Notes under the pieces: generated by a model | What the model saw: the letters and a program-made list of their open reading frames with translations, nothing else | Told to the model about the DNA's origin: nothing | Database searches by the model: none | DNA from: a virus | DNA: 64,000 bases | Reading direction: 5' to 3' (one strand) | Virus record (IMG/VR): IMGVR_UViG_3300042691_047309 | Span: 111,895-175,894 of that record | Translations under genes and position numbers: made by a program | Part shown: one piece after another, positions 4,340 to 62,483 of the stretch | How the letters are laid out: every line of letters starts with the position of its first letter | How positions within the stretch are numbered: the stretch's first letter is position 1

Positions 4340-4829
4340 TGTTTTAGAAATGGACATGAGTATTGAATACAAGTTCGCGTGGAATGTAGCTGCTCGAGCT
4401 TGTTTCAGTATTTTCTATATCCTACCAGACTGTATGTTACTTTATAGACATCAAGTGTCGGAACCATATATCTGGACTAAATTCGGATGTAATCACCCTG
4501 ATAAAATAGATTTAGTAAAACTAGATGGTAAAAATCTAATGTTATTTCATGTTGATGTTTATAAAGAAAAAACTCATAAATTTAAAGACCTAATTGATTA
4601 TTGTCAGTCTAATAACATTGATATCTGGATTCCTTTTCCACTTAAAAACCTTTGGAGAACTGAAGAGCCTCATCTTCAGATTATGAAAGATATACTAGAT
4701 AATTATCAATACAGCACTTACGATTTAACTGGAATGAACTACAGGAGTGAAAATGAAATAAGTAGATTGGTTAAAGAAAAAACGAAACCTATATTAAGAG
4801 ATATAAAATTAAGAAACTTATTTGATTAA
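4332..4829 (+). CDS. hypothetical protein with conserved C-terminal tail
   Basis: Unrecognised 165-residue protein overlapping the HAD gene by 8 nt; an in-frame ATG at 4350 is an alternative start. Aromatic-rich, with no signal peptide. The C-terminus LRDIKLRNLFD fits the R-x-x-K-[LI]-x-x-[LI]-[LF] tail shared with other small proteins here. It converges with the minus-strand gene 4826-5080, whose end overlaps it by 4 nt. Confidence 0.75.
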   Translation: MINVLEMDMSIEYKFAWNVAARACFSIFYILPDCMLLYRHQVSEPYIWTKFGCNHPDKIDLVKLDGKNLMLFHVDVYKEKTHKFKDLIDYCQSNNIDIWIPFPLKNLWRTEEPHLQIMKDILDNYQYSTYDLTGMNYRSENEISRLVKEKTKPILRDIKLRNLFD

Positions 4830-5080
4830 TATTCTATTTTCTCAACATCATCTAAATCAACATAGTATTCATTACCATCGATTTCTACTGTTATTAAACC
4901 ATCTTCATCTATATCGACCGGAGTAATTGGATCTTTTGGATCATTATCAGGATATTCTTTAACAATTGTAGAATAGATAACTCCTCTTTTCTTAATACAT
5001 TTTATTATATCATCAATTGTGATAAGAGTTCCTTCTTCATTATTCTGTTTGAAATCCTCAAATAATTTTATCCATTTCAT
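4826..5080 (-). CDS. small acidic protein with capsid-targeting-like leader
   Basis: An 84-residue protein beginning MKWIKLFEDFKQNNEE, one of about 15 leaders of this type in the window. The rest is acidic, with a short beta-rich stretch. The start is preceded by the TTTAATATATAA box and lies back-to-back with the leader gene at 5115. Function unknown. By analogy with T4 internal proteins it may be packaged in the capsid and its leader cut off; that is inference. Confidence 0.8.
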   Translation of the reverse strand: MKWIKLFEDFKQNNEEGTLITIDDIIKCIKKRGVIYSTIVKEYPDNDPKDPITPVDIDEDGLITVEIDGNEYYVDLDDVEKIEY

Positions 5081-5083
5081 AAA

Positions 5084-5097
5084 TTATATATTAAAAA
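5084..5097 (-). promoter_or_regulatory. TTTTTAATATATAA box, minus strand
   Basis: The minus strand reads TTTTTAATATATAA, 3 nt upstream of the start codon at 5080. One of about a dozen near-identical boxes ahead of leader-protein and virion genes; candidate late promoter. Confidence 0.55.
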
Positions 5098-5098
5098 C

Positions 5099-5109
5099 TT
5101 AATATATAA
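5099..5109 (+). promoter_or_regulatory. TTAATATATAA box, plus strand
   Basis: TTAATATATAA ends 5 nt before the ATG at 5115 and is back-to-back with the minus-strand copy, making a compact divergent control region. Confidence 0.55.
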
Positions 5110-5114
5110 AAAGT

Positions 5115-5927
5115 ATGAAGTATATTAAAAGATTCAACGAAGAGCTTAAACCAGAAACTTATATTAGTGCTGGTTATAGATTAAAAAATTTACCAGGTGG
5201 TGGAAAAAGAAGATCTTCACCTCTTATTGATTATGGTTTTGGGAAAAAGTATGGTTTCTATAAAATGCACTGGGCTAATGGTTCATCTCTTTTAGGAAAA
5301 GATTTAACATTTACTAATCTAATATGTGAGAGTTACTTTGGGAGACCTGACTCTTCAAAAATTGAGACTTTTAGGTATTCAGCAGAAGATGCTGTGGAAC
5401 TGTGGAAACAAGGTAATCATCCTCTTTGTATGACTTTTAATTTTGTTTTTCAATCTACTGAAGAAACAAAAGATAAATTAAATAGTAGTAGTGAACTTAA
5501 TACCAACTGTCCAATGTTCTCATTTGAGATTTGGTTTAGTAACTGGGAAGAAGGTTTAGATTCTTATAATTGGGATTATGATACTGAAGAGCCAATGACT
5601 GGAGATACCGTAGTTGATTTAAATGGTATGTATAAATGGACTAATGAACTTACAATCTATAAGAAGAAACCTGTTAAAATGTATTACTCAAAATCATATC
5701 CTTTCTGTGGTATATTTTCAGATAGAGCTTCTGCTTTGAAATTCAAAAAAGAATTAAACAGTTTAATGGATCCACATAAAGAAAAAGTTATGGAACTTTT
5801 AAGCTGTGTTAATGCTTCTGCTGACGACATAGAAGATTTTGAAGATAGAATCAATAAAATAAGTTTAAATCATCTTTTCTCAGTTGATGAAAAAACAACC
5901 AATTGGTTCACATACAATGAATTGTAA
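5115..5927 (+). CDS. leader protein, tandem paralog family member 1
   Basis: First of four consecutive paralogs (5115, 5941, 6663, 7527). The 270-residue protein begins MKYIKRFNEELKPETYISAG, the capsid-targeting-like leader followed by the family signature NEEL[KR]x-x-TY. The core is rich in Trp, Tyr and Asp. Near the end is the shared block DRASALKFKKEL. There are no catalytic motifs and no signal peptide. Member 1 differs from the others just after the signature, where a Gly/Lys-rich stretch replaces the usual helix with LGH. Likely a late virion or internal protein. Confidence 0.8.
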   Translation: MKYIKRFNEELKPETYISAGYRLKNLPGGGKRRSSPLIDYGFGKKYGFYKMHWANGSSLLGKDLTFTNLICESYFGRPDSSKIETFRYSAEDAVELWKQGNHPLCMTFNFVFQSTEETKDKLNSSSELNTNCPMFSFEIWFSNWEEGLDSYNWDYDTEEPMTGDTVVDLNGMYKWTNELTIYKKKPVKMYYSKSYPFCGIFSDRASALKFKKELNSLMDPHKEKVMELLSCVNASADDIEDFEDRINKISLNHLFSVDEKTTNWFTYNEL

Positions 5928-5940
5928 ATAAATTAATAAT

Positions 5941-6666
5941 ATGAAACACTTAAAGAAATTTAACGAAGAACTTAGACCACAGACTTATATGTCTGCTGCT
6001 AGAAAATTAGATAAATTAGGTCACCACGATAGAGCAAATGCTTTAAAAGACTGGGCTAAAGAAACTGAGAAAAAAGAAGAAATGATTAAGTGGCAAGACC
6101 GCATACAAGATTATGCTCAGTTTGGAACATTTAAATTGACTATAAAAAATCCAGAAACTAATGAAACATTAACTGGTGATTTTCATTTAGATGTTAATTT
6201 TGATGATTTATCATTTAGTGATGAGCCTGAAAGTGGTATAACTTTCTTCTTAGGTTTAATTCCAACTTCTGAAGATTTAATCTATCAGTATATGGAACTT
6301 TGTCCAGATTATGATTTCGGAAACGGTTTCTTCTGGGGTAAAATCTTTAATTTACAATATGAATTAGGAGATACTGTTGTATTTACTAAGTGGAATATGT
6401 GGGACTATGATGATGAAATGAATGGTAAAATAAATTTTGCTGACAGAGCATCTGCTAACAAGTTCAAGAATTTAATTATACAAATATTTAGTAATCCACA
6501 ATTAGGTTATCCATCTGGATATACCGACGCTGATGACTTATATGAAAAATTAACTAATACTATCTTAGCAGAGAACTCATTCTCTTCTGATTATGGATTT
6601 AAATTAGAAGATGCTGCTGAATACATGAGAACAATTAGTCCAAATTTACTTTCTTCTACACTATGA
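5941..6666 (+). CDS. leader protein, tandem paralog family member 2
   Basis: A 241-residue paralog. It begins MKHLKKFNEELRPQTYMSAA, then has the helix with KLGHHDRANALKDWAK, an acidic Phe/Trp-rich core, and the shared C-terminal block DRASANKFKNLI near residue 166. It follows member 1 by 13 nt and overlaps member 3 by an ATGA. Function unknown. Confidence 0.8.
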   Translation: MKHLKKFNEELRPQTYMSAARKLDKLGHHDRANALKDWAKETEKKEEMIKWQDRIQDYAQFGTFKLTIKNPETNETLTGDFHLDVNFDDLSFSDEPESGITFFLGLIPTSEDLIYQYMELCPDYDFGNGFFWGKIFNLQYELGDTVVFTKWNMWDYDDEMNGKINFADRASANKFKNLIIQIFSNPQLGYPSGYTDADDLYEKLTNTILAENSFSSDYGFKLEDAAEYMRTISPNLLSSTL

Positions 6667-7523
6667 GATACTTAAAAAGATTTAATGAAGAGTTAAAAGC
6701 ATCTACTTACAAAAAAGCAGGTGAGAAATTCACTCAGATGGGTCACAAAAGAAGAGGATCTGAATTATTAGATTATGCAACTCAAGTTGAATTAAAAGAA
6801 AAATATCAAAAATTAAGACAGGCTCAGGATGAAAATAAGGAGTATGGTTTATTTGATATTACGATGACAAGAGGTTATGGGTCAAATAAGAAAGATGTAT
6901 TTTCTGGTAAATTTTATCTACAAATGTGTTTAGAATCTGATTGGTTCAAAGACCAATTATGGGATTGGTTTTATGAAGGTATGGATTGGCATATGGGAAT
7001 TGCTATGGAGTTTGCCATTATACCAGCTGATGACGAAACACTTAGAATGTTGGAAACAAGTGAAGACGGAGATATAGTGTATTTTAGAAATAATACTATG
7101 TGGGGAGATGACTATAGATACTGGACAAATAGACTTTGGCTTACACTCTGTGATAAAAATGCAGTTCCTCTTTATATAGCAGGTGCTGGTGGATTTGAAG
7201 ATAGAGATTCTTTTACATTCCATTTTAATTCAAGATCAGAAGCTATGAAATTTAGAAACTTATTGGCTAATACATTAGAAGGAAAATCTGATTGGGGTTC
7301 TTATAATGGTAGAACGATTTCTGACCAATTAAAATCAACAATTATTATGGATGAAGAAGACTGGAGATCAAAACTAATGGATAAGTTTTTACCGGGTAGA
7401 GAAGATGAATATGATATTAATAATCCAGATACTTGGCCAAAAAATACTTTTACAGAAGATACTTACAAAGGAGCTATCGAGGCGGTTAAGAGAATGTCAG
7501 TAAATGGTTTATATAGAGATTAA
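6663..7523 (+). CDS. leader protein, tandem paralog family member 3
   Basis: A 286-residue paralog beginning MRYLKRFNEELKASTYKKAG, then MGHKRRGSELLDYA, a Trp-rich acidic core, the block SRSEAMKFRNLLANTLEG and the ending VNGLYRD, which matches the NSLYRD end of member 4. Translationally coupled to member 2 (ATGA). Function unknown. Confidence 0.8.
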   Translation: MRYLKRFNEELKASTYKKAGEKFTQMGHKRRGSELLDYATQVELKEKYQKLRQAQDENKEYGLFDITMTRGYGSNKKDVFSGKFYLQMCLESDWFKDQLWDWFYEGMDWHMGIAMEFAIIPADDETLRMLETSEDGDIVYFRNNTMWGDDYRYWTNRLWLTLCDKNAVPLYIAGAGGFEDRDSFTFHFNSRSEAMKFRNLLANTLEGKSDWGSYNGRTISDQLKSTIIMDEEDWRSKLMDKFLPGREDEYDINNPDTWPKNTFTEDTYKGAIEAVKRMSVNGLYRD

Positions 7524-7526
7524 GAG

Positions 7527-8798
7527 ATGAAGTATTTAAAAAGATATGAAGAAGCTGTCGGTGTTAGATTGAAATCAGAATTGAAATCAACAGTTGAAGA
7601 TTTGCTTATTGATTTAAGAGATGATGAATTTGAAACTAAAGTATCTGAAATAGATTATCATTCTCAAAAAGTAAAGGTCAAAGTCAATATACAAAGAGAT
7701 AGAGAATTTACTTATGAAGATATAAAACCTCAAATTGAATCTATTTGGTCTTATTTAAATGAAGAAGGATTTACAATTGAAAACTTCACTAGTGTAGAAG
7801 ACTGGGAAAACTTTGAAGAACCAGAAGACGAATTTACAATTCATCAAAAAGATAAAGGTTATGTGTGGTCCACTGGTGAAGATGGTGAGATTAAATCTAT
7901 TGACAAAGAATTTCAAAGAAGACCAAATGTCATGATTTCACCAATATATAATCCAGAAAACTTTGATAGAATTCAAAAGTGGATATTTGAGATTTCATTT
8001 ACTAAAGATAAAATTGTAGTTGATAGAAAGAGAGGTCATCTTACAACTAATGAAGAGTTAAAACCACAAACATATATAAGTGCTGCTGATAAACTAACTA
8101 AGTTAGGTCATATTAAAAGACCTGAGCAATTAAAATCTTGGGCTGAAACTATTAAGCAAAGAGAAATAGATACTAAACACAAAATGGCTTTAGAAGAAGC
8201 AAAAAAATTAGGACAATTTCAATTAAGATTTGTTGGTAGAGGAAGTGAAATAAGGTTTGCAAACTGTTACATTCAACTTTATTTTAATTCCGATTATTAC
8301 CTAAGTGAGATGTTACCAGAGTGGTTAGATGGTGAGAGAAACACACTTTGGTCACAGTTTATGTTTGGGATTCATCCGGTTTCTTCAGAAGATTTAGAAG
8401 TTTTAAATTGGTTTTCTGGTGATATTAAAGGTTATACAAATAGAGCGAATGGTATAATCTGGTTACAAGATGTTTATATCAATCTGACAAATCAAAACTG
8501 CAAAGATGAAGATGGTGTGACTTTACCTATGACCCCTTCAGGTGTAGTTTCAATCGAATGCTCTGAATTTAGTGAAGTTTATTTTGCAAATAGAAGAGAA
8601 GCTATTAAGTTTAGAAATTTATTAGTCGATCTTTTCGAGGGAGATATAGATTACATACAACCGAATGGTAAAGACTTTAAAGAAGATATAATTGAAACTT
8701 GGTGTGATCATGAAGAAAGACCAGTTGAACTTTCAGAGTTAGAAGATTTTATTGATAAACTTAGAGTAATGAGATTAAATTCATTATATAGAGATTAA
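7527..8798 (+). CDS. leader protein, paralog member 4 with inserted domain
   Basis: A 423-residue protein built differently from its three neighbours. A short leader MKYLKRYEEAVG is followed by about 165 residues not found in the other members. The family signature NEELKPQTYISAADKLTKLG then appears near residue 176, followed by the normal core, the block NRREAIKFRNLLVDLFEG and the end NSLYRD. The family module thus sits behind an inserted or fused domain, with Glu-rich junctions that could be processed. It ends the tandem array. Confidence 0.8.
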   Translation: MKYLKRYEEAVGVRLKSELKSTVEDLLIDLRDDEFETKVSEIDYHSQKVKVKVNIQRDREFTYEDIKPQIESIWSYLNEEGFTIENFTSVEDWENFEEPEDEFTIHQKDKGYVWSTGEDGEIKSIDKEFQRRPNVMISPIYNPENFDRIQKWIFEISFTKDKIVVDRKRGHLTTNEELKPQTYISAADKLTKLGHIKRPEQLKSWAETIKQREIDTKHKMALEEAKKLGQFQLRFVGRGSEIRFANCYIQLYFNSDYYLSEMLPEWLDGERNTLWSQFMFGIHPVSSEDLEVLNWFSGDIKGYTNRANGIIWLQDVYINLTNQNCKDEDGVTLPMTPSGVVSIECSEFSEVYFANRREAIKFRNLLVDLFEGDIDYIQPNGKDFKEDIIETWCDHEERPVELSELEDFIDKLRVMRLNSLYRD

Positions 8799-8814: not shown

Positions 8815-9987
8815 ATGAAAATAAAAAGATATAGACAATTCTTAGAATCAAACTCTAATGATATGTGGAACATTATTCCACAGTCAGTGAAAGATTTGCA
8901 ACAACTTTTTAAATCAAAAGAAAAAAAATTATATGTTGTTGGAGGTGCCGTTAGAGACTTTCTAACAGGAGATACACCAAAAGACTTTGACTTAGCAACT
9001 GATGCACTTCCAGATGAAGTATTAGAAATATTAGGAAGTAAATATAAAACTAACCTACAAGGTAAAGCATTTGGAGTGGTCGTGGTTTTCACCAATGATC
9101 AACCAGAAGGAATGGAGATTGCAACATTCCGAGAAGATGTTTCAAAAGGTAGAAACCCTGAAGTTAAATTAGGAGTTACCATTGAAGATGATGTTAAAAG
9201 AAGAGATTTAACTTATAACGCACTTTTCTATGATTTAGATACTAAAGAGATTGTTGATTTAACTGGAGGACGTGAGCATTTAGCAAAAGGAATAACTCAA
9301 ATGGTTGGTGATCCTATTGAAAGATTTGATGAAGATTCTTTAAGAATTTTGAGAGCTTTTAGATTTGCTTCAAGATATGGACACCCTTTACATAAAGATA
9401 CTGAAGCGGCAATTGAAAAAAGAAAACAATTAGAAAATATAGATCCTGAAACCGGTGAAATGAAAAGAATTTCACAAGAAAGAGTTTGGGAAGAGATGAA
9501 CAAGGCGTGGAAACAAGCAAAAGACTATAGAAACTATTTACAATTCTTTACTAAGTTTGATATGTGGTCTGAAGTTTTTCCAGGCTCTGAAATCAATACC
9601 GATCTGGTTGATAGTAAAGACTTTGTGGTTGTTATTGCTAACTTATTTAAGAATGAAAACACGGATGGTTTAGAAAAGAGATTGGTTCAAGACTACAGAA
9701 TAGATTCTCAAATGGCATCAAAAATAGTTTTCTTAATTAGATTATTAGAATTGACACCAGATACAGCATTTGATTTACATAAGTCAAAATTACAATGTCA
9801 TATTGAAGATAAAACTATTTTAGAATGGTTTAGAGTTTTGGGTGTAAATGATACTGTTAAAATTAAATTTGTAGAATACAAACCAACTACTTCTGCTCAG
9901 GAATTGATGTTACAGGGTTTTAAAGGAAAGGCTTTAGGTGATGAGTTAAAAAGACTTGAAATTGAAAATTTCAAGAAGATTTTATAA
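8815..9987 (+). CDS. CCA-adding enzyme / poly(A) polymerase family nucleotidyltransferase with leader
   Basis: A 390-residue class II tRNA nucleotidyltransferase-type protein. Residues 41-62 hold VVGGAVRD (GG at 43-44, R47-D48) and the metal-binding D57-F-D59. Further on are the RRDLTYNALFYD and ERFDEDSLRILRAFRFASR blocks of the head and neck domains. It would add CCA (or A) to RNA 3' ends, and the two tRNA genes at 20.8 kb lack an encoded CCA. Unusually, the protein starts MKIKRYRQFLESNSND, a capsid-targeting-like leader ahead of the catalytic domain, which raises the possibility of delivery with the virion. It directly follows the paralog array. Confidence 0.9.
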   Translation: MKIKRYRQFLESNSNDMWNIIPQSVKDLQQLFKSKEKKLYVVGGAVRDFLTGDTPKDFDLATDALPDEVLEILGSKYKTNLQGKAFGVVVVFTNDQPEGMEIATFREDVSKGRNPEVKLGVTIEDDVKRRDLTYNALFYDLDTKEIVDLTGGREHLAKGITQMVGDPIERFDEDSLRILRAFRFASRYGHPLHKDTEAAIEKRKQLENIDPETGEMKRISQERVWEEMNKAWKQAKDYRNYLQFFTKFDMWSEVFPGSEINTDLVDSKDFVVVIANLFKNENTDGLEKRLVQDYRIDSQMASKIVFLIRLLELTPDTAFDLHKSKLQCHIEDKTILEWFRVLGVNDTVKIKFVEYKPTTSAQELMLQGFKGKALGDELKRLEIENFKKIL

Positions 9988-11703: not shown

Positions 11704-11713
11704 TTAATATATA
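11704..11713 (+). promoter_or_regulatory. TTAATATATA box
   Basis: TTAATATATA ends 5 nt before the ATG at 11719, as for other leader-protein genes. A related TTAAATATATAA stretch faces the minus-strand gene starting at 11674. Confidence 0.5.
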
Positions 11714-11718: not shown

Positions 11719-12972
11719 ATGGATATTATTAAATTTTCTCAGTTTCTAAATGAAAATGTTATGATAACAGTTCTTGACTGTGTAATTGATGAATTCGGAA
11801 ATTTATACAATGGAACTAACAATCGATATCCGCTAATGAAAGGATATATTGAAAAAGAGAAACTTCCAAAAATTTCAGTTGGTAGAATTTTAGGTGATGA
11901 TAAAAGGACTTATTTAGCTGGTATAGACAAAAACGGTGTTTTAGTAGCAGCTGAAAAAAACAAATCATTAGATGGATATCTAATAGATAATATCGGAAAT
12001 AGAGTAAAAGTTCCGGCTTGGTTAAAAGGTACAAAATCAAGATATTGGAAGTTCTTTGACTTAACAAAGGATGCAAACGGAAATGATGTTCAAAGTTTTA
12101 ATTATGATTACACAAGACTTGTTCCAACTGTTGCAACTGGTTGGGTAAATACTAAAGTTGATATGGAAGTCATCAAAAAAGTTCGTAGATATTCAAGAGG
12201 TTTAGGTCAAGGTTCCGGTAGAGAAGGATTCGTTAGTAAATTGTCTGACTTGCAAAGAATATCTTCTGAAGGACTCCAAAAAAGAAAAAGATCAAGAAAT
12301 ACAATACAGAAAGAAATGTCTGTAATTATGTTACTTCACTACATTAATGAAATTAAAAACTTTTTTACTCCGTCAGCATCTGGATTCCTTTTTGAATCAT
12401 TCTTAGGTGGTTTAATTAAAAACTCAAAAGTGGTTGAAGATAATTCCAAAGCAGATGTAAGAGCTGACGGTGAAACTTGGCAAATAAAACTTTACGATGC
12501 TGTTTCATCCTCTTCGATATCAGTAGCCTATATGGACGAAAGGTCAGTGCCAAAAATTCCGGTAGATCACTTTGTAATTTGTTTGAAATATGCTGATAAG
12601 ATTGATATCGTTGTATTAAGAGGTATTGAAGACACAACAGATCCTCTTTGTTATACTAACTTCATAACCGGTGGTGGTAATTTTTCTGTAGCTAAAATCA
12701 AAAACACACCATTCAAATATACAATAGAGCTTTTAGGTATTGAAGAAAAAATTAAATCTATTGCATCTGGACTTAAAGAATCAATAGATGATATTTATTC
12801 TGATTTAAGCACTTTTCAATATAATATAGAATCAATAATCACTGGAGTAGATGAGAAAGGAAAATTGTTAAACGAGTCTAAGTTTGACCAGACTTACAAT
12901 GAATCAGTTAATATTGCACAAGGACTTGATGTCAAAATAACATCTCTTTACAAGACTATTAAACAAGAATAA
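11719..12972 (+). CDS. leader protein with PD-(D/E)XK-like nuclease signature
   Basis: A 417-residue protein starting MDIIKFSQFLNENVM (capsid-targeting-like leader with a possible L-N-E cut site). A basic central region (about 155-200, rich in Arg/Lys) precedes FLFESFLGG with E226, then AD246V followed by Q255-I-K257 in consecutive strands. This E...D...[QE]-x-K arrangement fits the PD-(D/E)XK nuclease fold. The C-terminal 80 residues look helical. It may be a virion-packaged nuclease or DNA-binding relative; the Q-x-K variant leaves activity uncertain. Confidence 0.75.
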   Translation: MDIIKFSQFLNENVMITVLDCVIDEFGNLYNGTNNRYPLMKGYIEKEKLPKISVGRILGDDKRTYLAGIDKNGVLVAAEKNKSLDGYLIDNIGNRVKVPAWLKGTKSRYWKFFDLTKDANGNDVQSFNYDYTRLVPTVATGWVNTKVDMEVIKKVRRYSRGLGQGSGREGFVSKLSDLQRISSEGLQKRKRSRNTIQKEMSVIMLLHYINEIKNFFTPSASGFLFESFLGGLIKNSKVVEDNSKADVRADGETWQIKLYDAVSSSSISVAYMDERSVPKIPVDHFVICLKYADKIDIVVLRGIEDTTDPLCYTNFITGGGNFSVAKIKNTPFKYTIELLGIEEKIKSIASGLKESIDDIYSDLSTFQYNIESIITGVDEKGKLLNESKFDQTYNESVNIAQGLDVKITSLYKTIKQE

Positions 12973-27548: not shown

Positions 27549-27770
27549 ATGAAGTACAAACCCGGTGATATAGTCATTAAAACCACAGGTGGTAATAAAA
27601 TGACAATCTTTGATAAGATATCCGATGGTGTTTATAAATGTCTTTGGTTTGTTGAAAACTCAATGAAGGAATCCGTATTTAATGAGGAGGAATTAGTTAC
27701 TTTAAATGAGTATAAACGGTTTCTGAAAACGGAAGAAAGAGAAGATAAGATTAATCAATTACTGGGTTAA
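27549..27770 (+). CDS. DUF2158-like small protein with conserved tail
   Basis: A 73-residue protein. KPGDIVIKTTGGNKMTIFDK and CLWFVENS...ESVFNEEEL follow the small DUF2158 (YodC-type) pattern, an SH3-like barrel of unknown role. The added C-terminus EEREDKINQLLG is the recurring tail seen on other small phage proteins here. It converges with the leader gene 27751-28248, overlapping by 20 nt. Confidence 0.75.
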   Translation: MKYKPGDIVIKTTGGNKMTIFDKISDGVYKCLWFVENSMKESVFNEEELVTLNEYKRFLKTEEREDKINQLLG

Positions 27771-28248
27771 AATAAACATTTAATGATATTGACTTATATT
27801 CTTCGTGGTGTGAATTCATATCAATAAGAACTTTATCATAACTATCTTTAAGTCTATCCCAAGTTACTAAAATATCCTTTAACTTATCAACACCAGAATC
27901 ATCTAAAATAGCATAATCAGCTTTTATCTTTATGGTAGCACAAAATACAAACGGATATTCATCTAAATCAGTTGTGCGTAAAAATAATTGACGGTAAGAC
28001 TCATTATCAAGATATCTATTAGCTTCTTCTGTTTGAGATTGAACCCATCTTTCAAAATTTCCATTATTTGGATTTACAGACCAAAGCATGTCACGCTCTT
28101 TTACACCAGAGTATCCACAAACACACATGCTATAAGATACAACATCATCATCTTCATACTCTACGAAATATTCCCTAATCTTATTTACTTCATCTTTGAA
28201 AGAATCAGACGAATTACTTTCATTAAATTTTGACCAGTCTTTAATCAT
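27751..28248 (-). CDS. leader protein of unknown function
   Basis: A 165-residue protein beginning MIKDWSKFNESNSSD, a capsid-targeting-like leader with a possible F-N-E cut site. The rest is a mixed domain with CVCGYSG and many acidic residues. Its ATG follows the stop of an upstream 20-codon frame by one base, suggesting coupled translation. Function unknown. Confidence 0.75.
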   Translation of the reverse strand: MIKDWSKFNESNSSDSFKDEVNKIREYFVEYEDDDVVSYSMCVCGYSGVKERDMLWSVNPNNGNFERWVQSQTEEANRYLDNESYRQLFLRTTDLDEYPFVFCATIKIKADYAILDDSGVDKLKDILVTWDRLKDSYDKVLIDMNSHHEEYKSISLNVYFNPVID

Positions 28249-33180: not shown

Positions 33181-33192
33181 TTTAATATATAA
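33181..33192 (+). promoter_or_regulatory. TTTAATATATAA box
   Basis: Perfect copy of the box, directly after the preceding stop codon and 3 nt before ATG 33196. Confidence 0.55.
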
Positions 33193-33195: not shown

Positions 33196-33867
33196 ATGAA
33201 ATATTTAAGTAATTGGAAACAAATAAATGAAGCTGATAATCAACTAACTGAAGAAACACCAAGTAGATCTGGTAGAGTATTAACTCAAGCTCAGCGAGAG
33301 TGGAATGATGATTCTTCTATAGAAAGAGGTGATAATTTACCTTCAGTTCTCTTTACTGATGTTGAGGGATCTTCTGAAAAATGGTCAAGTGATGCTGTAA
33401 CAATGATGGAGCAATTGAAAGGACATCATGAGTTAGTTAATAGAATTTCTAAAAAGTATAACGGATGGATTGTTAAAACAATAGGAGATGCTTTTATGAT
33501 ATATTTTGAACCAAATACTGATTCACTAACAAATGCAATTAAATGTGGTAAAGAGATAATTTTGTCTGAAAAAAACTATAATTTAAGAGTTGGGGTTTGC
33601 CAGGGTCCGATGCAAGAAGATACTTATGAGTTACAAAAGGTAACTCTAAGAGATTTTTATGGTAACTCTATAAATGTTGCATCTAGAATGGAGTCTAAAA
33701 TCGCAGAAGCTGCCGGTTATATTGCTTTTACATCACTTGAGCCAATTAGTAAAAATATTATATCTCAGTATAGTAAAACAATTGGTGAGGTTTTAGATGT
33801 TGATTTAAGTAAATTTGATCTAAAAGGAGCTAAAACCGAATCTGCTTATAGAATAAAAGTAAAATGA
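33196..33867 (+). CDS. class III nucleotidyl cyclase with capsid-targeting-like leader
   Basis: A 223-residue protein. Leader MKYLSNWKQINEADNQ (possible I-N-E cut), a linker to about 47, then one complete class III cyclase catalytic domain. Metal-binding D55 in FTDVEGS and D98 in TIGDAFM; K94 and D153 fit the adenine-selecting Lys/Asp pair; N160 and R164 in GNSINVASRM are the transition-state residues. It should work as a homodimer making cAMP (or another cyclic NMP, as in Pycsar cyclases). No membrane or receptor domain. A packaged cyclase could flood the cell with signal on entry; this is inference. Confidence 0.9.
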   Translation: MKYLSNWKQINEADNQLTEETPSRSGRVLTQAQREWNDDSSIERGDNLPSVLFTDVEGSSEKWSSDAVTMMEQLKGHHELVNRISKKYNGWIVKTIGDAFMIYFEPNTDSLTNAIKCGKEIILSEKNYNLRVGVCQGPMQEDTYELQKVTLRDFYGNSINVASRMESKIAEAAGYIAFTSLEPISKNIISQYSKTIGEVLDVDLSKFDLKGAKTESAYRIKVK

Positions 33868-33904: not shown

Positions 33905-34120
33905 ATGTTTATCTGTGTTAGTAATACATCAAATAGAAGTGAATTAGAAATAGGAAAATACTATGACTTATTTAAACATGAGCAACACCCAAAAGTTGTT
34001 TGGGTAAAAATACCCGATTCATCTAATACTGTTGGTTACAGAACTATTCAATGTTATTTAGCTGACTTTAAAAATAAAGGTCAATGGAGAAATGATCAGA
34101 TTGATAAGATTTTAGATTAA
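33905..34120 (+). CDS. small SH3-like protein with conserved tail
   Basis: A 71-residue protein with the pattern F-I-C-V-S-N...L-x-x-G-K-Y-Y, a predicted small beta barrel related to those at 48656 and 48910. It ends GQWRNDQIDKILD, the recurring tail. Function unknown. Converges with the kinase gene (4-nt overlap). Confidence 0.7.
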   Translation: MFICVSNTSNRSELEIGKYYDLFKHEQHPKVVWVKIPDSSNTVGYRTIQCYLADFKNKGQWRNDQIDKILD

Positions 34121-35451
34121 TCTTCCCAAAAGAAATAGACAAACTTATCTGGCCATCTGTAATCAAAGTGTGCAAAACCATATAACTCTGCAACTCTTTC
34201 TAATCTATCATCAGTATTTCTTGGAAGTTCTCCGTCATACTCGATTGAGTCAAATTCAACATAAACATTATCATCATGTTCTGTGACATCTAAAATATGT
34301 AAGCCAGTATGATGTTCGAAATTGGACCTGAACTCATTGGTATCAAATTTCTTTTCACCAACTCTTTCGTCTTTCTTTTTGAATTTAAAATCAATTGTGT
34401 GAAATTTAATATCTGTTTGTTCACCTTCACTTGAATAAGGCTCGAATTTCACTAAAGACCAACCTAAATCTGAAAGTCTAGCAATTACCACTTGCATTTC
34501 ATCACAAATTCTAACAAAGTCTTCATAGGTCTTAAATTTATCATTTTTAAAGAATCTTATAAAAAACTGAGAAACCAAAACACCGCTACTCATTTTTATT
34601 TGTGGTTGGAAACTGGTATCACCATCTAAATATTGTTGATAAGTAATACCACCACCATGTGATATAAATTTTATATCATATCCATCATCAATAAAATCTA
34701 GCATAGTATCAACTATTTGTGAAGTAACATCTTTGTTATCAACACTTTCTTTAATGACGTATCTGTCATTCTTTCTAATTGCTAACTTACCATCAATAAA
34801 TTTATAAAACTTATATTTCTTATCAATTGATGTTACTAAATAATATGCATCTGGATTAAGTGCTTTATATCTTTGAATATTACCTTCTACTTTAACTCCA
34901 TCAACTTCACCACCCTGTTGTTTAGCATAAGCCCATTGAATATAGTGTGGATCAACGTGACGTGATCTTAAAGCATCTTGGTCAATAGAGGTTTGTAAAG
35001 TAGAAAGTAAATGAATGAATATTATTTTATATTTATTTTGTCTAGCATTATCATAAATCTCTTTTATGTGTTCATATCCTTTATCTGTGAATTCTTTTCC
35101 AGCACCAGTTGTGTCATAGATAAAGTTTTGACCAGTTTCCATAAACTCCATCATTCTTAGAAGATTTAATTCAGAAGCATTCTTAGTTCTACCACCTTCT
35201 TTTTTTTCTCTACCTCTGTAATAAACATTTGGATCTTTTGTAAAAAGAAGTGAAACATCATCAGTTGAGAAGTCTTTAATGTTTCTATTTTTAGTATGAA
35301 TATGATTTTTAACAAAGTAAGACTTTCCGATACCTGGTGCTCCAATCAAGAAGATAGCTAGTCCTCTACTCATTCCAATGATTTCTGGAATCGGCTCGTT
35401 TTTAGAAACTTCTTCTAAAATAAATTGGTTATATTCCTTAATAAATTTCAT
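34117..35451 (-). CDS. P-loop kinase (zeta-toxin-like) with capsid-targeting-like leader
   Basis: A 444-residue protein: leader MKFIKEYNQFILEEVSKNE (I-L-E cut site), then a kinase domain with Walker A G37-A-P-G-I-G-K-S44, an STDDVSLLF stretch and FIYDTTGAGKEF, as in zeta-toxin/polynucleotide-kinase-type P-loop kinases. The C-terminal half (about 245-444) is an unrelated mixed domain. Zeta kinases phosphorylate UDP-sugars or other small substrates and are toxic. Packaging with the virion would allow early action; substrate unknown. Confidence 0.8.
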   Translation of the reverse strand: MKFIKEYNQFILEEVSKNEPIPEIIGMSRGLAIFLIGAPGIGKSYFVKNHIHTKNRNIKDFSTDDVSLLFTKDPNVYYRGREKKEGGRTKNASELNLLRMMEFMETGQNFIYDTTGAGKEFTDKGYEHIKEIYDNARQNKYKIIFIHLLSTLQTSIDQDALRSRHVDPHYIQWAYAKQQGGEVDGVKVEGNIQRYKALNPDAYYLVTSIDKKYKFYKFIDGKLAIRKNDRYVIKESVDNKDVTSQIVDTMLDFIDDGYDIKFISHGGGITYQQYLDGDTSFQPQIKMSSGVLVSQFFIRFFKNDKFKTYEDFVRICDEMQVVIARLSDLGWSLVKFEPYSSEGEQTDIKFHTIDFKFKKKDERVGEKKFDTNEFRSNFEHHTGLHILDVTEHDDNVYVEFDSIEYDGELPRNTDDRLERVAELYGFAHFDYRWPDKFVYFFWED

Positions 35452-35457: not shown

Positions 35458-35488
35458 TTGTATATATTAAAATTGTTTATTATATTTG
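35458..35488 (+). promoter_or_regulatory. Bacteroidota-type promoter, 4 nt from the ATG
   Basis: TTG (35458-35460), 20-nt spacer, TATATTTG (35481-35488), then TCGT and ATG 35493. Probable leaderless transcript; overlaps the opposing late-type box. Confidence 0.65.
35461..35474 (-). promoter_or_regulatory. AATTTTAATATATA box, minus strand
   Basis: Box for the kinase gene (start 35451, 9 nt away). It lies within the spacer of the opposing host-type promoter at 35458-35488. Confidence 0.5.
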
Positions 35489-42121: not shown

Positions 42122-43252
42122 TTATTGCTCTTCTCCTCCACCTAATTGTTTTTCAATTTCAGCGATTTTATCTTTATTAACATCAGGATCTTTGTAAAGG
42201 TCAGCTATATCACTTAGTTTTTTGATTGCTTCAGGATTCTTAGTTTTTACATCTTTAAGTGTATTTACTAAGTCTTCTTGTCCTTCTGCTTTTGCTTCTA
42301 CTTTTCCTAATAAATCCTCAGTTTTCTTTTTAAAATCTGCATCTTCAAAGGAAACAACATCACCGTTAATATCCTTGACTTTTTTAATACCTATCATTTC
42401 TTTATCTTGAAGATCTTTCATAGGTCCTTCATTAGGTTTTTTCTTATCCTCATCAGTTATTTTTTTCCATTCATCTTCATTGAATTTATCTCTTTTATAG
42501 ATAACTGTATCACCAGCTTTGTAACCTCCTTCTGGTCCAGCTTCCGGAACTTCTTTTCCTAATGACTCAACGTATTTATCAACGTCTTCGTCTTTAATTT
42601 CGGATAAATATTTATCAAGTCTCGGAACTAAAATTTTATTTACCCAATCAATAGATAATTGTTTCATCTTTTTAGTATCTTTTCCAGCTGGTAGAATTGC
42701 CTTTTTAAATTCCGGAAGGTGAGTTTGATCTTTCATATCAACAACAATCTTTTTGTCATCTACCTTAGCGTCTGTTCCAACTTTTAAATCAGGTCCACCC
42801 GCATATTTATAATCTTTAATAGCTCTATTTCTTATTGTTTCCATATAGAATTTAACTATATCGACTGTCGGTGTATCTTTACCAAAAGATTTCAAAAGTC
42901 CATCATAAAGAGTTTGAAGACCTTGTTTTCCAAGTGCTCCCAATTGAGGATCGAGTATGTTTTTAATCAGATCTAAACATGCTTGTTCATTAATATCTGT
43001 ATCTTTTTTCTTTATAAATTCGTCCATTACTCCTTTAAGTAAGTAACTATCATCTTGTGGATTCAATGGATTTTTATCAATCCATGCTTCAATTTCTTCA
43101 GGTGCTGGGTTTTCTCCTAATTTTTTAATTTCCTCTACGGCTTTATTCCACATATTTTTGAAAAAATTCAAAACACCAGATAGGAGTTCTTCATTTACTG
43201 ATTTTAGGTTTCTATCTTTTTTAAATGACTCAAATTTCTTAATATAGCTCAT
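42122..43252 (-). CDS. internal-protein-like leader protein
   Basis: A 376-residue, very charged (Lys/Asp/Glu) protein with leader MSYIKKFESFKKDRNLKSVNEE. The body is mostly helical, with few aromatics and a disordered Lys/Asp-rich C-terminus (QLGGGEEQ). Composition and leader are what is expected of a prohead-core or internal protein processed by a maturation protease. No enzyme motif seen. Confidence 0.75.
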   Translation of the reverse strand: MSYIKKFESFKKDRNLKSVNEELLSGVLNFFKNMWNKAVEEIKKLGENPAPEEIEAWIDKNPLNPQDDSYLLKGVMDEFIKKKDTDINEQACLDLIKNILDPQLGALGKQGLQTLYDGLLKSFGKDTPTVDIVKFYMETIRNRAIKDYKYAGGPDLKVGTDAKVDDKKIVVDMKDQTHLPEFKKAILPAGKDTKKMKQLSIDWVNKILVPRLDKYLSEIKDEDVDKYVESLGKEVPEAGPEGGYKAGDTVIYKRDKFNEDEWKKITDEDKKKPNEGPMKDLQDKEMIGIKKVKDINGDVVSFEDADFKKKTEDLLGKVEAKAEGQEDLVNTLKDVKTKNPEAIKKLSDIADLYKDPDVNKDKIAEIEKQLGGGEEQ

Positions 43253-43275: not shown

Positions 43276-43285
43276 TATATATTAT
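43276..43285 (-). promoter_or_regulatory. ATAATATATA box, minus strand
   Basis: Variant of the late-type box, 23 nt upstream of the leader gene starting at 43252. Confidence 0.35.
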
Positions 43286-53253: not shown

Positions 53254-53806
53254 AGGTAAACTTATAATGATAATCGGGGCACCTGCTTCTGGTAAATCAA
53301 CATTGGCTTCTGAAGTTCATACTGAACTAAAGAAAAGAAATAAGAACTCTATTTTTATTAGTGAAGTCGCTACAGATTTTATTGCAGAATATGGAATACC
53401 AAACACACCAATTGATCAGATGGTTATATTTTATAAACAATTGAATAAAGAAACAATGTTTTTAGATTCAAAGGAGTTCATTGTTTGTGATTCGAGTTCT
53501 ATCTTAAACTATTTTTACTTTAGAAAATTATTCCCTGAGAAGTTATCCAATAAAGATATTGCTTCTATTAATCATCTTCAAAAAGAAATATTAAAACATA
53601 TTAATACAATTGACTATATCTTTTATGTACCACCTATGATAGATATCGATACTAATGATGGTATTAGGTATCACAAAGAAGATGATATAAAGAGATTAGA
53701 TAGATGGATTAAGTCTTATTTAGAATTAGAAAATATAAATCATACTGATTTATCTGAAGTGAAAGTAAATGATAGATTAGATTTTATTTTAAAAGAATTA
53801 CTATAA
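53234..53806 (+). CDS. NadR-like P-loop kinase/ATPase (AAA_28)
   Basis: A 190-residue protein: Walker A GAPASGKST at 15-23, then ISEVATDFIAEYGIP and YVPPMIDIDTNDGIRY, the pattern of the AAA_28/NadR C-terminal kinase family. NadR kinases phosphorylate nicotinamide riboside, so with the PRPP synthetase a role in NAD metabolism is possible. Last gene of the metabolic operon; overlaps folA by 20 nt. Confidence 0.75.
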   Translation: MKNLNSKGKLIMIIGAPASGKSTLASEVHTELKKRNKNSIFISEVATDFIAEYGIPNTPIDQMVIFYKQLNKETMFLDSKEFIVCDSSSILNYFYFRKLFPEKLSNKDIASINHLQKEILKHINTIDYIFYVPPMIDIDTNDGIRYHKEDDIKRLDRWIKSYLELENINHTDLSEVKVNDRLDFILKELL

Positions 53807-54127
53807 TCCATCCTCATCGTGACTGTGTGAAGAATGACCTGTTCGGGTTGATTTATACTGATTCCACATCTCCATATAATCCTCTTCATCTTCGATTTTA
53901 TCAAATATATCAACTGGCTTTTCATGTTCTTCTTCATTATCTGTCGATGATAAAGATCCATGAAAAATCTCACCCGGTTTAATATTTTCATCCAACCAAT
54001 TCTCAAATTCCTCAACCTCATCGATTGTACAACCAAGTCTCTTAGATATATCATCATAAGTTAGTGGTATGAACATTGATTCTTTATTTCCACTCACAAA
54101 TTCTAAAAATAATTTTATCTTCTTCAT
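53801..54127 (-). CDS. small acidic leader protein
   Basis: A 108-residue protein with leader MKKIKLFLEFVSGNKE, then a helix-turn-helix-sized helical stretch (YDDISKRLGCTIDEVEEFE) and an acidic, His-rich end (GHSSHSHDEDGL). Preceded by a perfect late-type box. The central helices could bind DNA. Possible internal protein. Confidence 0.75.
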   Translation of the reverse strand: MKKIKLFLEFVSGNKESMFIPLTYDDISKRLGCTIDEVEEFENWLDENIKPGEIFHGSLSSTDNEEEHEKPVDIFDKIEDEEDYMEMWNQYKSTRTGHSSHSHDEDGL

Positions 54128-54131: not shown

Positions 54132-54147
54132 TATATATTAAAAAAAA
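54132..54147 (-). promoter_or_regulatory. TTTTTTTAATATATA box, minus strand
   Basis: Box 4 nt upstream of the start codon at 54127. Confidence 0.5.
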
Positions 54148-58656: not shown

Positions 58657-58908
58657 TTAATTTCTACTTAAAGGTTTATAATCAGGCATTACACCTTTGA
58701 AGTTTCTCTCTCCGGATAAATATGCTTCTTGGTCAGCTTTACAAGCAGCGTCATATTCAGGATCCTTTATCTCATCCTCTTTACATTTCATGCAAATGAC
58801 CTCTTCATTGAACATTGATTGGGTTGTTGAGTTGTCAGTTGGACCTTTACATCTATCACAGAATTCTCTATACATTGAGAATGATTCGAATGTTTTTATG
58901 TTTTTCAT
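58657..58908 (-). CDS. zinc-ribbon protein with leader
   Basis: An 83-residue protein. Leader MKNIKTFESFSMYREF is joined directly to a small two-CxxC domain (CDRC at 17-20 and CMKC near 39-42) and an acidic tail ending GERNFKGVMPDYKPL, a pattern found in small free-standing zinc proteins. Here it carries the leader. Operon with the next upstream gene (4-nt overlap). Confidence 0.8.
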   Translation of the reverse strand: MKNIKTFESFSMYREFCDRCKGPTDNSTTQSMFNEEVICMKCKEDEIKDPEYDAACKADQEAYLSGERNFKGVMPDYKPLSRN

Positions 58909-59417
58909 TTTTTGATTGTGTTAAAATCATTTTTAAGGAAGTTATTAAAATCTAAAACTTTTTTATCTTTCGATTTAATTTCTCCTTCTCCAGATGTAAA
59001 GTCTTGTCTTTTAGCAAAGATATCTTTAAGTGCTTTTAAATCTAACCTTTTTTGTCTTGATTTCTTTCCAGTTCTGGGTCCATGTTCTTTACCCATCGGA
59101 CTTGGCATTTTCTGAAAAACTCTATTGGATCCAGATGGATTGTATGGAATTGAAACATCACCCGAACCGACAGATCCGCCACCAGAAGCCCAGTTTGTAC
59201 CTATTGTAGTTCCTGCTAATCCAGATGGTTGAGCATTTACAACAGCTCCCATTCCACCGACAGATGGGCCACCAGTTGCTGATGTATCTTCGAGTATAAG
59301 CGACTCTTTTTGTTTTATTGTTGAAACTATTTGTTCAAACAATACTTCATCACTGTGGTCTTCTTTCAAAAATCTAGATTTAATTTGATATAATTCCATT
59401 AGGCTTAAATGTTCCAT
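58905..59417 (-). CDS. Gly/Ser-rich structural-type protein
   Basis: A 170-residue protein: helical N-terminus with repeated Glu (EDHSDEVLFEQIV, ILEDTSATGG), a Gly/Ser-rich flexible centre, then a basic segment (GPRTGKKSRQKRLDLKALKDIF). ILED at about 41-44 could be a maturation-protease site. Probably a virion or prohead component; not recognised. Confidence 0.7.
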   Translation of the reverse strand: MEHLSLMELYQIKSRFLKEDHSDEVLFEQIVSTIKQKESLILEDTSATGGPSVGGMGAVVNAQPSGLAGTTIGTNWASGGGSVGSGDVSIPYNPSGSNRVFQKMPSPMGKEHGPRTGKKSRQKRLDLKALKDIFAKRQDFTSGEGEIKSKDKKVLDFNNFLKNDFNTIKK

Positions 59418-59429
59418 AAATCTATATAT

Positions 59430-59705: not shown

Positions 59706-59775
59706 TGTGAAGATTTTTTTTTGAACAAACTCGTTTATAACTTATATATAATTTACTAAATATAGAAAAACATTA

Positions 59776-60441
59776 ATGAATAAAGTGAAACTCTTAGAAG
59801 TAAAAAAACTTCTAAAAGAATTGGAGTTTATTGAATCTGATTTTGACTATCGAAATGAAATTATCGGAGAAGCAGATTCTGCTTTTATAAATTCAATCAA
59901 TCAATTCTTATCACTTCATCCAGAACTTAAGGAAATCTATGACAACAAAATTACGGAAAAAATTAATCAATCAATCAAAAAAACGGAAGAATTCTCAGGA
60001 GAATCTACAACGGAAAATTCCGAATTGGTTGAACCAGATGATATCGAAAACGAGAAAATTGAATCTGAAAATATTGAGGAGAATGAAGAGGAAGTTAAGA
60101 ATCAAAGCCATCTTTCGGTTATAAAAAAACTTTACAGAGAAATTGTAAAAATTACACATCCTGATAAAATTAAAAATAGTAGATTAAACGAGTTATATCT
60201 CAAATCAACACAATATTATGATAGTAATAATAAGATTGGAATTTATGCAGTTTGCAATGAGTTAAATATTAATTATGAAATATCAGATGATGACATTGAA
60301 TTGATTTATGGTGAAATAAAAAAATATCAACAGAAAATTAATTTTATTGAAAGTACATATACTTGGAAATGGTATAATTGTGATGACGATGGATTAAAAA
60401 ATCAAATATTGGTAAATTATATCAAACAAAAAATTACATAA
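59776..60441 (+). CDS. J-domain (DnaJ-like) protein
   Basis: A 221-residue protein. Acidic disordered middle (about 75-115), then a J domain: IKKLYREIVKITHPDKIKNS contains the HPD tripeptide needed to stimulate DnaK. The C-terminal 60 residues are helical. Likely recruits host Hsp70 to phage assembly or replication. Confidence 0.8.
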   Translation: MNKVKLLEVKKLLKELEFIESDFDYRNEIIGEADSAFINSINQFLSLHPELKEIYDNKITEKINQSIKKTEEFSGESTTENSELVEPDDIENEKIESENIEENEEEVKNQSHLSVIKKLYREIVKITHPDKIKNSRLNELYLKSTQYYDSNNKIGIYAVCNELNINYEISDDDIELIYGEIKKYQQKINFIESTYTWKWYNCDDDGLKNQILVNYIKQKIT

Positions 60442-61078
60442 CATTTATTTTAATCTTCTTGTCTTTTACTAAATCCTCTAATTCTTCTTTTCTAAAAGTC
60501 TCTTTATAAATATCATTAATCTTATCCTTATTCTGAAGTATCCACTCATTACCATTCGATGTAGTGTAGATATAGTTCTGGTCACCATCAACAATTTCAA
60601 TAGTTCTTGATGTAAGTTTATCATAAAACTTTTTGACATCATCTTTAATTTTATAAATTTTTACATCATTCCATTTTGAAACAGTGTCATTGAATATTTG
60701 CATAAGAATATAGAGTGGATTCTCTAGTTCACTACTATTTATGTCATATAAAAACATAAATCTACAAGGTTTATTTAAAAATGTTTGATAGTCATTTGAA
60801 TTTTCAAGAGGAGACTTCTTTAACGCTATACTTGATAAGGAGTTAATGAACTCTATGTTATCTGTTAAAACATCTAAATCTAACTTATCTTGAAAATCAT
60901 TTTGTGGCAATTTCAAAGTATCAAAGATATTTGTTTCCTCAGCGCCTATCGAAGATAGTAGTGCATCATGCCATACAGTTAGTGATTCAAGTAGATCCTC
61001 TACTCTCTGAAAATTTAAGTCGATGACCAACGATTCTTTGAACTGACTATATGTCTTGAGCCTTTTTAGATGTTTCAT
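60434..61078 (-). CDS. leader protein of unknown function
   Basis: A 214-residue protein with leader MKHLKRLKTYSQFKESLVID (F-K-E cut site). The body is helical and acidic with no motif I know. It sits back-to-back with the leader gene at 61125 across paired late-type boxes. Candidate internal protein. Confidence 0.75.
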   Translation of the reverse strand: MKHLKRLKTYSQFKESLVIDLNFQRVEDLLESLTVWHDALLSSIGAEETNIFDTLKLPQNDFQDKLDLDVLTDNIEFINSLSSIALKKSPLENSNDYQTFLNKPCRFMFLYDINSSELENPLYILMQIFNDTVSKWNDVKIYKIKDDVKKFYDKLTSRTIEIVDGDQNYIYTTSNGNEWILQNKDKINDIYKETFRKEELEDLVKDKKIKINVM

Positions 61079-61080
61079 AA

Positions 61081-61094
61081 TTTATATATTAAAA
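61081..61094 (-). promoter_or_regulatory. TTTTAATATATAAA box, minus strand
   Basis: Box 2 nt upstream of the start codon at 61078; paired with the plus-strand box at 61107. Confidence 0.55.
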
Positions 61095-61106
61095 AAAGAG
61101 ATTCAA

Positions 61107-61119
61107 TTTTAATATATAA
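61107..61119 (+). promoter_or_regulatory. TTTTAATATATAA box, plus strand
   Basis: Perfect box 5 nt upstream of ATG 61125. Confidence 0.55.
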
Positions 61120-61124
61120 GAAGT

Positions 61125-62483
61125 ATGAAATGGATCAGAGGTTATCAACTTTTTAAAGAATCAAAGACTTATGCTAACAAAAACATTATTAGTGAGATTT
61201 GCATCTCTATGGTTCTATTGAATAATGAATTTCTTGACTCAATATTAGATAGAGGACTAAAAGCTAGGTATTCTGAGAATTCTCAGATATTTTTAACAGA
61301 CTTAAAGAATTTACTTCTTGCTAAGAATAGACTTGAGTTAGGTAAATTTGTGGATGGTAAATGTGTAACAGATGATGAGGTTTCTAAAATAAACGGTGGA
61401 TTCGATGAGATAGATTTTGATATTGAAAAAGATTGGAATATACTTTTAAATGCTAGATTAGCTGCTCGTAGTATTATTGATAAACTACTCCCAGATCAAA
61501 AACTTGAATCTGAAATGATTTCAAAAGTTTATTGGTTAGGTCCTAATAAAGACAACGAAAACAAAGAAGATATTGTTTTAGAACTAAAAGACGGGAAACA
61601 ATTTTCATTTTACATAAATAAAAGTTTAAGTAGTCAAAAGAGCTCTTCTTTTAATACATTCGCTGAAGACTTATTAGGATCTAATTTAGAAAAACTATAT
61701 TCAGAAGAGTATTTACCAAAATGGGATAAATTAGTACAACAATGGATTAAAATAATTTATGAAAATTCTAATAAAAATATTCAAAGACATATAGAAAATT
61801 TCATTGATCCAAATAGAATAGATACTATGAAATATTTTGAATACTTTGATATTAGACACAGTGATCCTAAATTTAAACATTTAGGTGAGTTTATTGATGA
61901 GTTTAGTAAGAACATTTTAAAATTTGACGAACTACTTAATGAAGTTTGGAAAAACAAAGAAAGATGCTTTGTTGATGTCGATAGAGTTGAAAAAGATTGG
62001 AATGAAACAAAGATAGTTATTCTAAACTCAAAAATATTAGAGAACTTATTTACAAACTCGCTCAAAACTCAATTTCCAGAAGATATCAAAAAAGTTGATG
62101 ATAATTTTAAAGAAGCCGCTGGTACTGTTAAAATGAAATTTATTAAAACAGTTGTTGATAAAATGGGTTGCTTAGAAAGACCAATTTACTATGTCGGTAC
62201 AGGAGGTAAAGATTTTAATCTATTACCATCGAGAGAGTTCTTTAGAGAGAACTATGATAATTTACAACTATTATTTGACTACCACGTAAACTTTGAAATA
62301 AGTCAATTAGACAATGACTTTAAAATTAAATTGATACTTAATTTCGAAAATGAAAAACTAATCGAAATGGACATCATTATTAAATTTAGTGGAAGTGAGT
62401 TATCTGGAAAACTTAGTTCAAAATACAGGTATGAAATTCCTGCAAATTTTAACTATCTAGTCTCAAAGAATATCTTAGATTAA
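61125..62483 (+). CDS. leader protein, possible PD-(D/E)XK relative
   Basis: A 452-residue protein with leader MKWIRGYQLFKESKTY (F-K-E cut site). D149-I-V-L-E-L, then K155-D-G-K, and K166 at the end of the following strand (EDIVLELKDGKQFSFYINKS) resembles the D...x-x-K strand pair of PD-(D/E)XK proteins, as in the leader protein at 11719. The remainder is helical and charged. Activity uncertain. Confidence 0.7.
   Translation: MKWIRGYQLFKESKTYANKNIISEICISMVLLNNEFLDSILDRGLKARYSENSQIFLTDLKNLLLAKNRLELGKFVDGKCVTDDEVSKINGGFDEIDFDIEKDWNILLNARLAARSIIDKLLPDQKLESEMISKVYWLGPNKDNENKEDIVLELKDGKQFSFYINKSLSSQKSSSFNTFAEDLLGSNLEKLYSEEYLPKWDKLVQQWIKIIYENSNKNIQRHIENFIDPNRIDTMKYFEYFDIRHSDPKFKHLGEFIDEFSKNILKFDELLNEVWKNKERCFVDVDRVEKDWNETKIVILNSKILENLFTNSLKTQFPEDIKKVDDNFKEAAGTVKMKFIKTVVDKMGCLERPIYYVGTGGKDFNLLPSREFFRENYDNLQLLFDYHVNFEISQLDNDFKIKLILNFENEKLIEMDIIIKFSGSELSGKLSSKYRYEIPANFNYLVSKNILD

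Follow-up and report, generated by a model that had tools for sequence, protein, structure and literature searches.

Why should 15 proteins encoded on both strands of one viral DNA stretch begin with nearly the same ten or so residues? The stretch (the window) comprises 64,000 nucleotides, positions 111,895-175,894 of the 175,894-base virus record IMGVR_UViG_3300042691_047309 (the contig). A preliminary description listed 15 open reading frames (ORFs) in the window that share a basic N-terminal leader, and each was found in its place with an ATG start and the N-terminus described. It is very probable that this leader is a capsid-targeting propeptide of the phage T4 internal-protein type, carried by a Mahaphage-type huge phage, with predicted cleavage, packaging and injection of the attached cargo. 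The capsid-targeting reading had already been proposed and is supported here because the leader preserves the T4 register of residues 4 and 7 and ends in [FIL]-x-E, a form that matches predicted prohead protease sites. It also rests on the co-occurrence of the leader with that protease in relatives, on a promoter-like box shared with head genes, on the presence of other leaders in phages with gp23-type capsid and S77 protease genes, and on control phages that lack the leader.

The nearest relatives of the record are the complete huge-phage genomes LR745206 (634,780 bases) and LR756502 (642,428 bases), followed by LR756501 (735 kb), LR756504 (636 kb), LR756500 and the Lak phages. The Mahaphage clade includes Lak and genomes larger than 634 kb, and its hosts are Bacteroidetes (PMC7162821). 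Of the 139 contig genes that have a match in LR745206, 121 map to a single stretch at 418-557 kb, with gene order nearly kept (Spearman 0.95). Because the matches are collinear with one stretch, the record most likely represents part of a Mahaphage-type genome similar in size to LR745206.

The recurrence of the leader was measured with a position matrix built from 66 seed N-termini, all from LR745206, with the cut-off placed where 0.1% of internal positions pass; gene starts in all counts come from a simple gene caller. The matrix matches 34 of the 228 genes of the 176-kb contig (0.23 expected), as compared to one of 825 internal Met positions of the contig. In LR745206, complete at 635 kb, it matches 106 of 864 genes (fewer than one expected). 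Twelve of the 15 listed leaders are recovered, the remaining three (8815, 11719 and 28248) being register variants. A further 22 matches lie in the contig beyond the window, so the finding is larger than was first claimed. Tandem leader-gene arrays occur there at contig 32-42 kb and 55-63 kb. Roughly 12-15% of this phage's genes (about one protein in seven) carry the leader. Among control phages, the matrix matched 2 of 94 genes in Bacteroides phage crAss001 and 0 of 116 in Bacillus phage G; it gave no match in T4 and two in phage PAU, both of which have leaders of their own. In a profile-free test, the pattern [FILVY]-x-E-[small/polar], its Glu falling at residues 8-13, was compared with internal positions. 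Enrichment was 2.7-fold for the contig (p=2.6e-8), 2.6-fold for LR745206 (p=3e-22) and not significant for crAss001 (1.3x) or phage G (0.9x). A DNA pattern search of IMG/VR for MK[YH]LKxFNES returned 89 matches in 77 stretches; 85 of the 89 open an ORF of at least 45 aa, and around the matches there is about one leader ORF per 2.9 kb. No report of leaders of this sort in huge phages was found in the open-licence literature, the part that could be searched. The 15 leaders of the window are as follows, the slash preceding the first residue after each leader.

5057..5080, minus strand: leader MKWIKLFE/D of ORF 4826-5080 (84 aa); matrix match, kept in the LR745206 and LR756502 orthologs.
5115..5141, plus strand: leader MKYIKRFNE/E of ORF 5115-5927 (270 aa); matrix match.
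5941..5967, plus strand: leader MKHLKKFNE/E of ORF 5941-6666, a paralog of 6663 and 7527; matrix match.
6663..6689, plus strand: leader MRYLKRFNE/E of ORF 6663-7523, a paralog of 5941 and 7527; matrix match.
7527..7553, plus strand: leader MKYLKRYEE/A of ORF 7527-8798; matrix match.
8815..8847, plus strand: leader MKIKRYRQFLE/S (MKIKRYRQFLES) of ORF 8815-9987, a CCA-adding enzyme/polyA-polymerase-head protein; register variant.
11719..11754, plus strand: leader MDIIKFSQFLNE/N of ORF 11719-12972, PD-(D/E)XK assignment not confirmed; register variant, no matrix match.
28219..28248, minus strand: leader MIKDWSKFNE/S of ORF 27751-28248; register variant, with a similar MIKKWNQFNES form in LR745206.
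33196..33231, plus strand: leader MKYLSNWKQINE/A of ORF 33196-33867, a class III nucleotidyl cyclase; matrix match.
35413..35451, minus strand: leader MKFIKEYNQFILE/E of ORF 34117-35451, a P-loop (AAA_33-like, weak) protein; matrix match.
43190..43252, minus strand: leader MSYIKKFESFKKDRNLKSVNE/E of ORF 42122-43252 (376 aa); matrix match, orthologs MKYVRTFESFRNKKTEPVNEE and MKHLRNFDKFKKSNVNEE.
54101..54127, minus strand: leader MKKIKLFLE/F of ORF 53801-54127; matrix match.
58885..58908, minus strand: leader MKNIKTFE/S of ORF 58657-58908, a two-CxxC (zinc-ribbon-like) protein; matrix match, ortholog MDNLETFESFS.
61034..61078, minus strand: leader MKHLKRLKTYSQFKE/S of ORF 60434-61078; matrix match, ortholog MRYIKSYKTFKES.
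61125..61160, plus strand: leader MKWIRGYQLFKE/S of ORF 61125-62483; matrix match, ortholog MKWLRNFELFKEA.

Two more possible variants, MNVLRGGEFLIKES and MELYQIKSRFLKED, occur in the window at 49499-51262 and 58905-59417 and were absent from the original list.

The leader consensus is M-[KR]-[YH]-[LI]-[KR]-x-[FY], followed by N-E-S or by a second aromatic residue one helical turn on (e.g. YKIFES). Since synonymous codons vary inside the leader, it is conserved at the protein level; in the orthologs of ORF 8815-9987 the leader form is preserved while the letters have changed. Hydrophobic frequencies are maximal at residues 4/7 (0.74/0.72 in the contig, 0.69/0.75 in LR745206 and 0.79/0.79 in PAU) as compared to 0.34-0.49 in other genes of the same genomes; residue 7 was partly selected by the motif used and residue 4 was not. 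Charge peaks at residues 2 and 5. The leaders end in FNE/S, LFE/S, IFE/S and similar forms, with a hydrophobic residue at P3 and Glu at P1. The T4 IPIII leader (MKTYQEFIAEA) uses residues 4 and 7 for targeting and residues 8 and 10 for processing, and this leader alone suffices to package and inject foreign proteins (PMC9026906). The T4 record contains MKTYQEFIAEA in IPII and IPIII and MKTFKEFT in IPI. A leader of about ten residues common to otherwise unlike proteins, hydrophobic residues at 4 and 7, and hydrophobic-x-Glu at the leader end, which together characterize the T4 internal proteins, are all found here. Forms between this leader and that of T4 occur in another viral sequence, L206 (MKTFKEYLIE, MKSFKEFINES and MERIKSFNEFINES); the leader is too short for judging common ancestry with that of T4.

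The protease expected to cleave such leaders is found in the relatives. In LR745206 positions 198,546-202,434 hold both the S77 prohead protease gene and the gp23-type capsid gene; this region is outside the 418-557 kb stretch, and the same proximity of the two genes is seen in LR756502, LR756501, LR756504, LR756500 and PAU. S77 scores fall under the Pfam cut-off in most of the five huge-phage genomes, and the genomic place is consistent. Among 30 large IMG/VR contigs, gp23 is above cut-off in 14, and S77 adjoins it in 12 of these. The protease frame in LR745206, LR756502, LR756501 and LR756504 is about 700-800 residues long and consists of S77 and a long, acidic C-terminal tail of about ten tandem repeats of about 15 residues like AYSEYIAENLDKNI, each containing [LI]-A-E. 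The tail holds more [ILVFY]xE than all 300 shuffles; each repeat resembles the T4 leader core YQEFIAE and is itself a predicted cleavage site. These frames (LR745206 198546-200669, L031/L032; LR756502 225272-227371; LR756501 73913-76336; LR756504 near 187058) probably encode a protease-scaffold fusion. Aligned predicted capsid junctions read SINE/N, QINE/N, QMNE/N, QIHE/N and ELYE/N. The PAU capsid protein has been N-terminally sequenced and is shortened from 585 to 520 residues (PMC5646251); the predicted junction RALME64/N65 gives 521 residues and 56.1 kDa (56.2 reported), in agreement with that sequencing. The PDB yielded no match to the PAU capsid protein. Thus the leader ending has the form of the predicted cut sites of the capsid and the scaffold-like tail, which supports a T4-like capsid-targeting propeptide.

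Leader genes also share an upstream box with head genes. The box TAATATATA, counted as an exact motif within 70 bases before first-in-operon genes, precedes 38 of 53 leader genes and 80 of 382 others in LR745206 (p=4e-13), and 14 of 18 leader genes and 11 of 92 others in the contig (p=5e-8). The portal and protease genes share the TTAATATATA box with first-in-operon leader genes: the copies are TAATATATAC before the protease and TTAATATATAA before the portal, with a near form, TTATATATA, before the capsid gene. Boxed genes without a leader include those for portal, tail tube, head decoration and endolysin; genes without the box include DNA polymerase, helicase and ligases. The pattern fits a putative late promoter. 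A wide 22-column promoter matrix separated the groups weakly (LR745206 p=7e-3, contig p=1) because its construction dropped boxes near the ATG, and it was replaced by the exact-motif counts. In the window, nine of the 15 leader genes have the box, and most of the remaining ones closely follow another gene. The TAATATATA boxes of the window are listed below.

5085..5093, minus strand: before ORF 4826-5080.
5100..5108, plus strand: before ORF 5115.
11705..11713, plus strand: before ORF 11719.
33183..33191, plus strand: before the cyclase gene.
35461..35469, minus strand: before ORF 34117-35451.
43276..43284, minus strand: before ORF 42122-43252.
54132..54140, minus strand: before ORF 53801-54127.
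61083..61091, minus strand: before ORF 60434-61078.
61110..61118, plus strand: before ORF 61125.

The proteins behind the leaders had been called unrelated. This does not hold for 5941, 6663 and 7527: comparison of the leaderless sequences identifies 5941, 6663 and the C-terminal half of 7527 as paralogs (E 4e-9 to 3e-18), and the 5115 protein resembles them by eye only. The rest show no detectable similarity, apart from one marginal 35-residue match. An internal NEELKPQTYISA/NEELKPQTYISAADKL stretch in ORF 7527-8798 repeats the post-leader start of 5941 and 6663, and the ORF looks like a fusion, as if one leader gene had been joined behind another. Regarding the proposed enzymes, Pfam agreed with the CCA/polyA-polymerase head (ORF 8815-9987, PF01743, E=3.6e-30) and the nucleotidyl cyclase (ORF 33196-33867, PF00211, E=2.7e-15), weakly with the P-loop kinase and not with the PD-(D/E)XK proteins. 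The cyclase contains FTDVEG, GDAF and N..ASR stretches, which we take to be like those of active class III enzymes, and its catalytic motifs are apparently intact. Leaders also open the cyclase relatives of LR745206 and of a second phage type (L190/L206), the latter starting with MKSFKEFINES. A scan of viral contigs found only two cyclase relatives, and the same scan for relatives of ORF 61125 found none. Two short viral contigs, L195 and L198, carry a CCA-adding enzyme gene that adjoins an S77 prohead protease gene in divergent orientation; one of these proteins lacks a leader and the start of the other is doubtful, and they were not used as evidence. A set of 77 leader proteins from LR745206 has matches to 11 Pfam families, as compared to 81 for 77 random non-leader proteins (longer on average). 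The cargo is thus mostly without a known family, the exceptions being NUDIX, M15 peptidase, methyltransferase, CCA-adding and cyclase domains. A portal match among the leader proteins traced back to a NUDIX region in common.

Other phage lineages have leaders of their own. In PAU about 20 proteins begin with MKTL..LYE[AS], and the genes of several directly flank the S77 protease gene. The leaders of the L206 phage (the three forms given above and MRNLPTYEQYMISEA) are very close to those of T4, and further variants occur in Lak and LR756501. In the Lak-A2 loci L100-L103 (TAG read as Gln) proteins share another start, MNKLIRKLLENLFDD, which may be the leader in its Lak form. The virion proteins of phage CBB, which has S77 and gp23, were identified by mass spectrometry (PMC5259590). 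Seven of 49 virion-detected proteins have a leader-like N-terminus, as do 15 of 307 others (p=0.02), which lends modest support to an association of leader and virion. A different shared N-terminus, MLPF[PS]R..EYGN, is found in CBB at genes 536-553 (L212 15989-26322), CBB_144 and CBB_247; it is present on about nine virion proteins detected by mass spectrometry, of which some contain Kelch or Laminin-G domains, and looks like a virion-surface docking tag.

The CBB tag shows that virion-docking leaders not of the T4 type exist, and the leader described here could likewise be an uncleaved tag for another virion part (tail, whiskers or outer head). We consider this unlikely: the CBB tag is carried by adhesion-type proteins, the leader here preserves the T4 4/7 register and ends like the predicted protease sites of the capsid and scaffold-like proteins, and enzymes such as CCA-adding, NUDIX and cyclase proteins make little sense outside the particle. 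An address within the infected cell (membrane, replication compartment or chaperone), unconnected with the virion, is somewhat less likely again. Membrane binding is conceivable for a helix that is short, basic and amphipathic (helical moment 0.45 vs 0.30), and in T4 the N-terminus of gp23 sends proteins to GroEL (cited in PMC10052503), but such an address leaves unexplained the [FIL]xE ending, the co-occurrence with S77 and gp23, the promoter box in common with portal and protease, and the PAU cluster around the protease. It is very improbable that the N-termini resemble each other only because of a common translation-start region, duplicated genes or AT-rich chance. Some leader proteins are indeed paralogs and leader genes are often in tandem, but synonymous codons vary inside the leader, the protein bodies are mostly unrelated, chance predicts fewer than one match and the pattern is missing from AT-rich control phages. 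The statistics already contradict this reading, and we discard chance, codon-level constraint and simple paralogy as explanations.

Several points weigh against a T4-type propeptide. A minority of leaders have no clean [FIL]xE nearby (MKWLKTYETFRPLN), a clear leader is missing from a few orthologs (contig 2177 vs LR745206 419216), the box also precedes some recombination and metabolism genes, and the CBB enrichment is small. The 176-kb contig contains neither S77 prohead protease nor gp23-type capsid genes. The preliminary description would have taken the lack of a prohead protease in the genome as evidence against packaging; the fragment has none, and its relatives carry S77 beside gp23. The absence is explained by the location of the contig, which corresponds to LR745206 418-557 kb, while the head genes are at 198-202 kb.

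If the leader acts as in T4, the short basic helix (K2, hydrophobic residue 4, K/R5, aromatic residue 7) would bring the cargo to the prohead scaffold core, the scaffold probably being the repeat-bearing tail of the protease fusion. S77 would then cleave behind the Glu of [FIL]-x-E at residues 8-15, and the trimmed cargo would remain in the head, enter the host along with the DNA and act at once on host or defence targets. In T4, IPI counters type IV restriction by blocking the enzyme, and an unknown defence makes IPIII necessary (PMC9391042). We infer that the role of the cargo here is most likely first-response counter-defence and takeover, as in T4. A broader proposal, which we hold tentatively, is that Mahaphages may possess a modular injected proteome of more than 100 proteins per genome, including nucleotide-signalling and RNA enzymes. 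The lineage-specific tag would dock on the tandem, cleavable repeats (AYSEYIAEN) of the protease-scaffold fusion, which are like capsid-targeting sequences; tag and repeat would co-evolve, and any gene could become cargo by acquiring about ten codons. If this is true, one sequence rule would predict which of the hundreds of huge-phage proteins of no known function are injected at the first moment of infection, giving a direct candidate list of anti-defence and takeover proteins. Very large capsids could then be loaded by means of a portable tag, and a sizeable share of 'dark' huge-phage genes would be accounted for.

Three known systems can be compared to this one. The SPN3US/phiKZ-type phages also place many ejected proteins in a giant head and cut N-terminal propeptides after Glu. 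They belong to another capsid lineage, and a short leader common to many proteins is not reported there; the propeptides processed by the protease gp245 are mostly 111-254 residues long (two are 20-24), with nine substrates known (PMC10052503). PAU is closer, as it is a gp23/S77 phage with a lineage-specific leader in the same register, and the LxE cut form also occurs in its N-terminally sequenced capsid protein. The PAU leader differs in sequence, and its proteins are mostly small unknowns, many of them clustered at the protease. The T4 proteins IPI, IPII, IPIII and Alt share with the present set a short N-terminal leader, K2 (in the internal proteins), hydrophobic residues 4/7 and Glu at the predicted cut, and T4 has the S77 protease (gp21) and gp23 capsid that are seen here in the relatives. 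The leader described here is more basic (K/R5) and usually ends in FNE or xFE, the cargo includes a CCA-adding enzyme, a nucleotidyl cyclase and NUDIX proteins, and the prohead protease of the relatives is fused to a repetitive scaffold-like tail. T4 has three internal proteins and Alt, whereas there are about 34 leader proteins per 176 kb here and more than 100 in a 635-kb genome. Internal proteins are already known as a kind from T4; the scale here is far larger.

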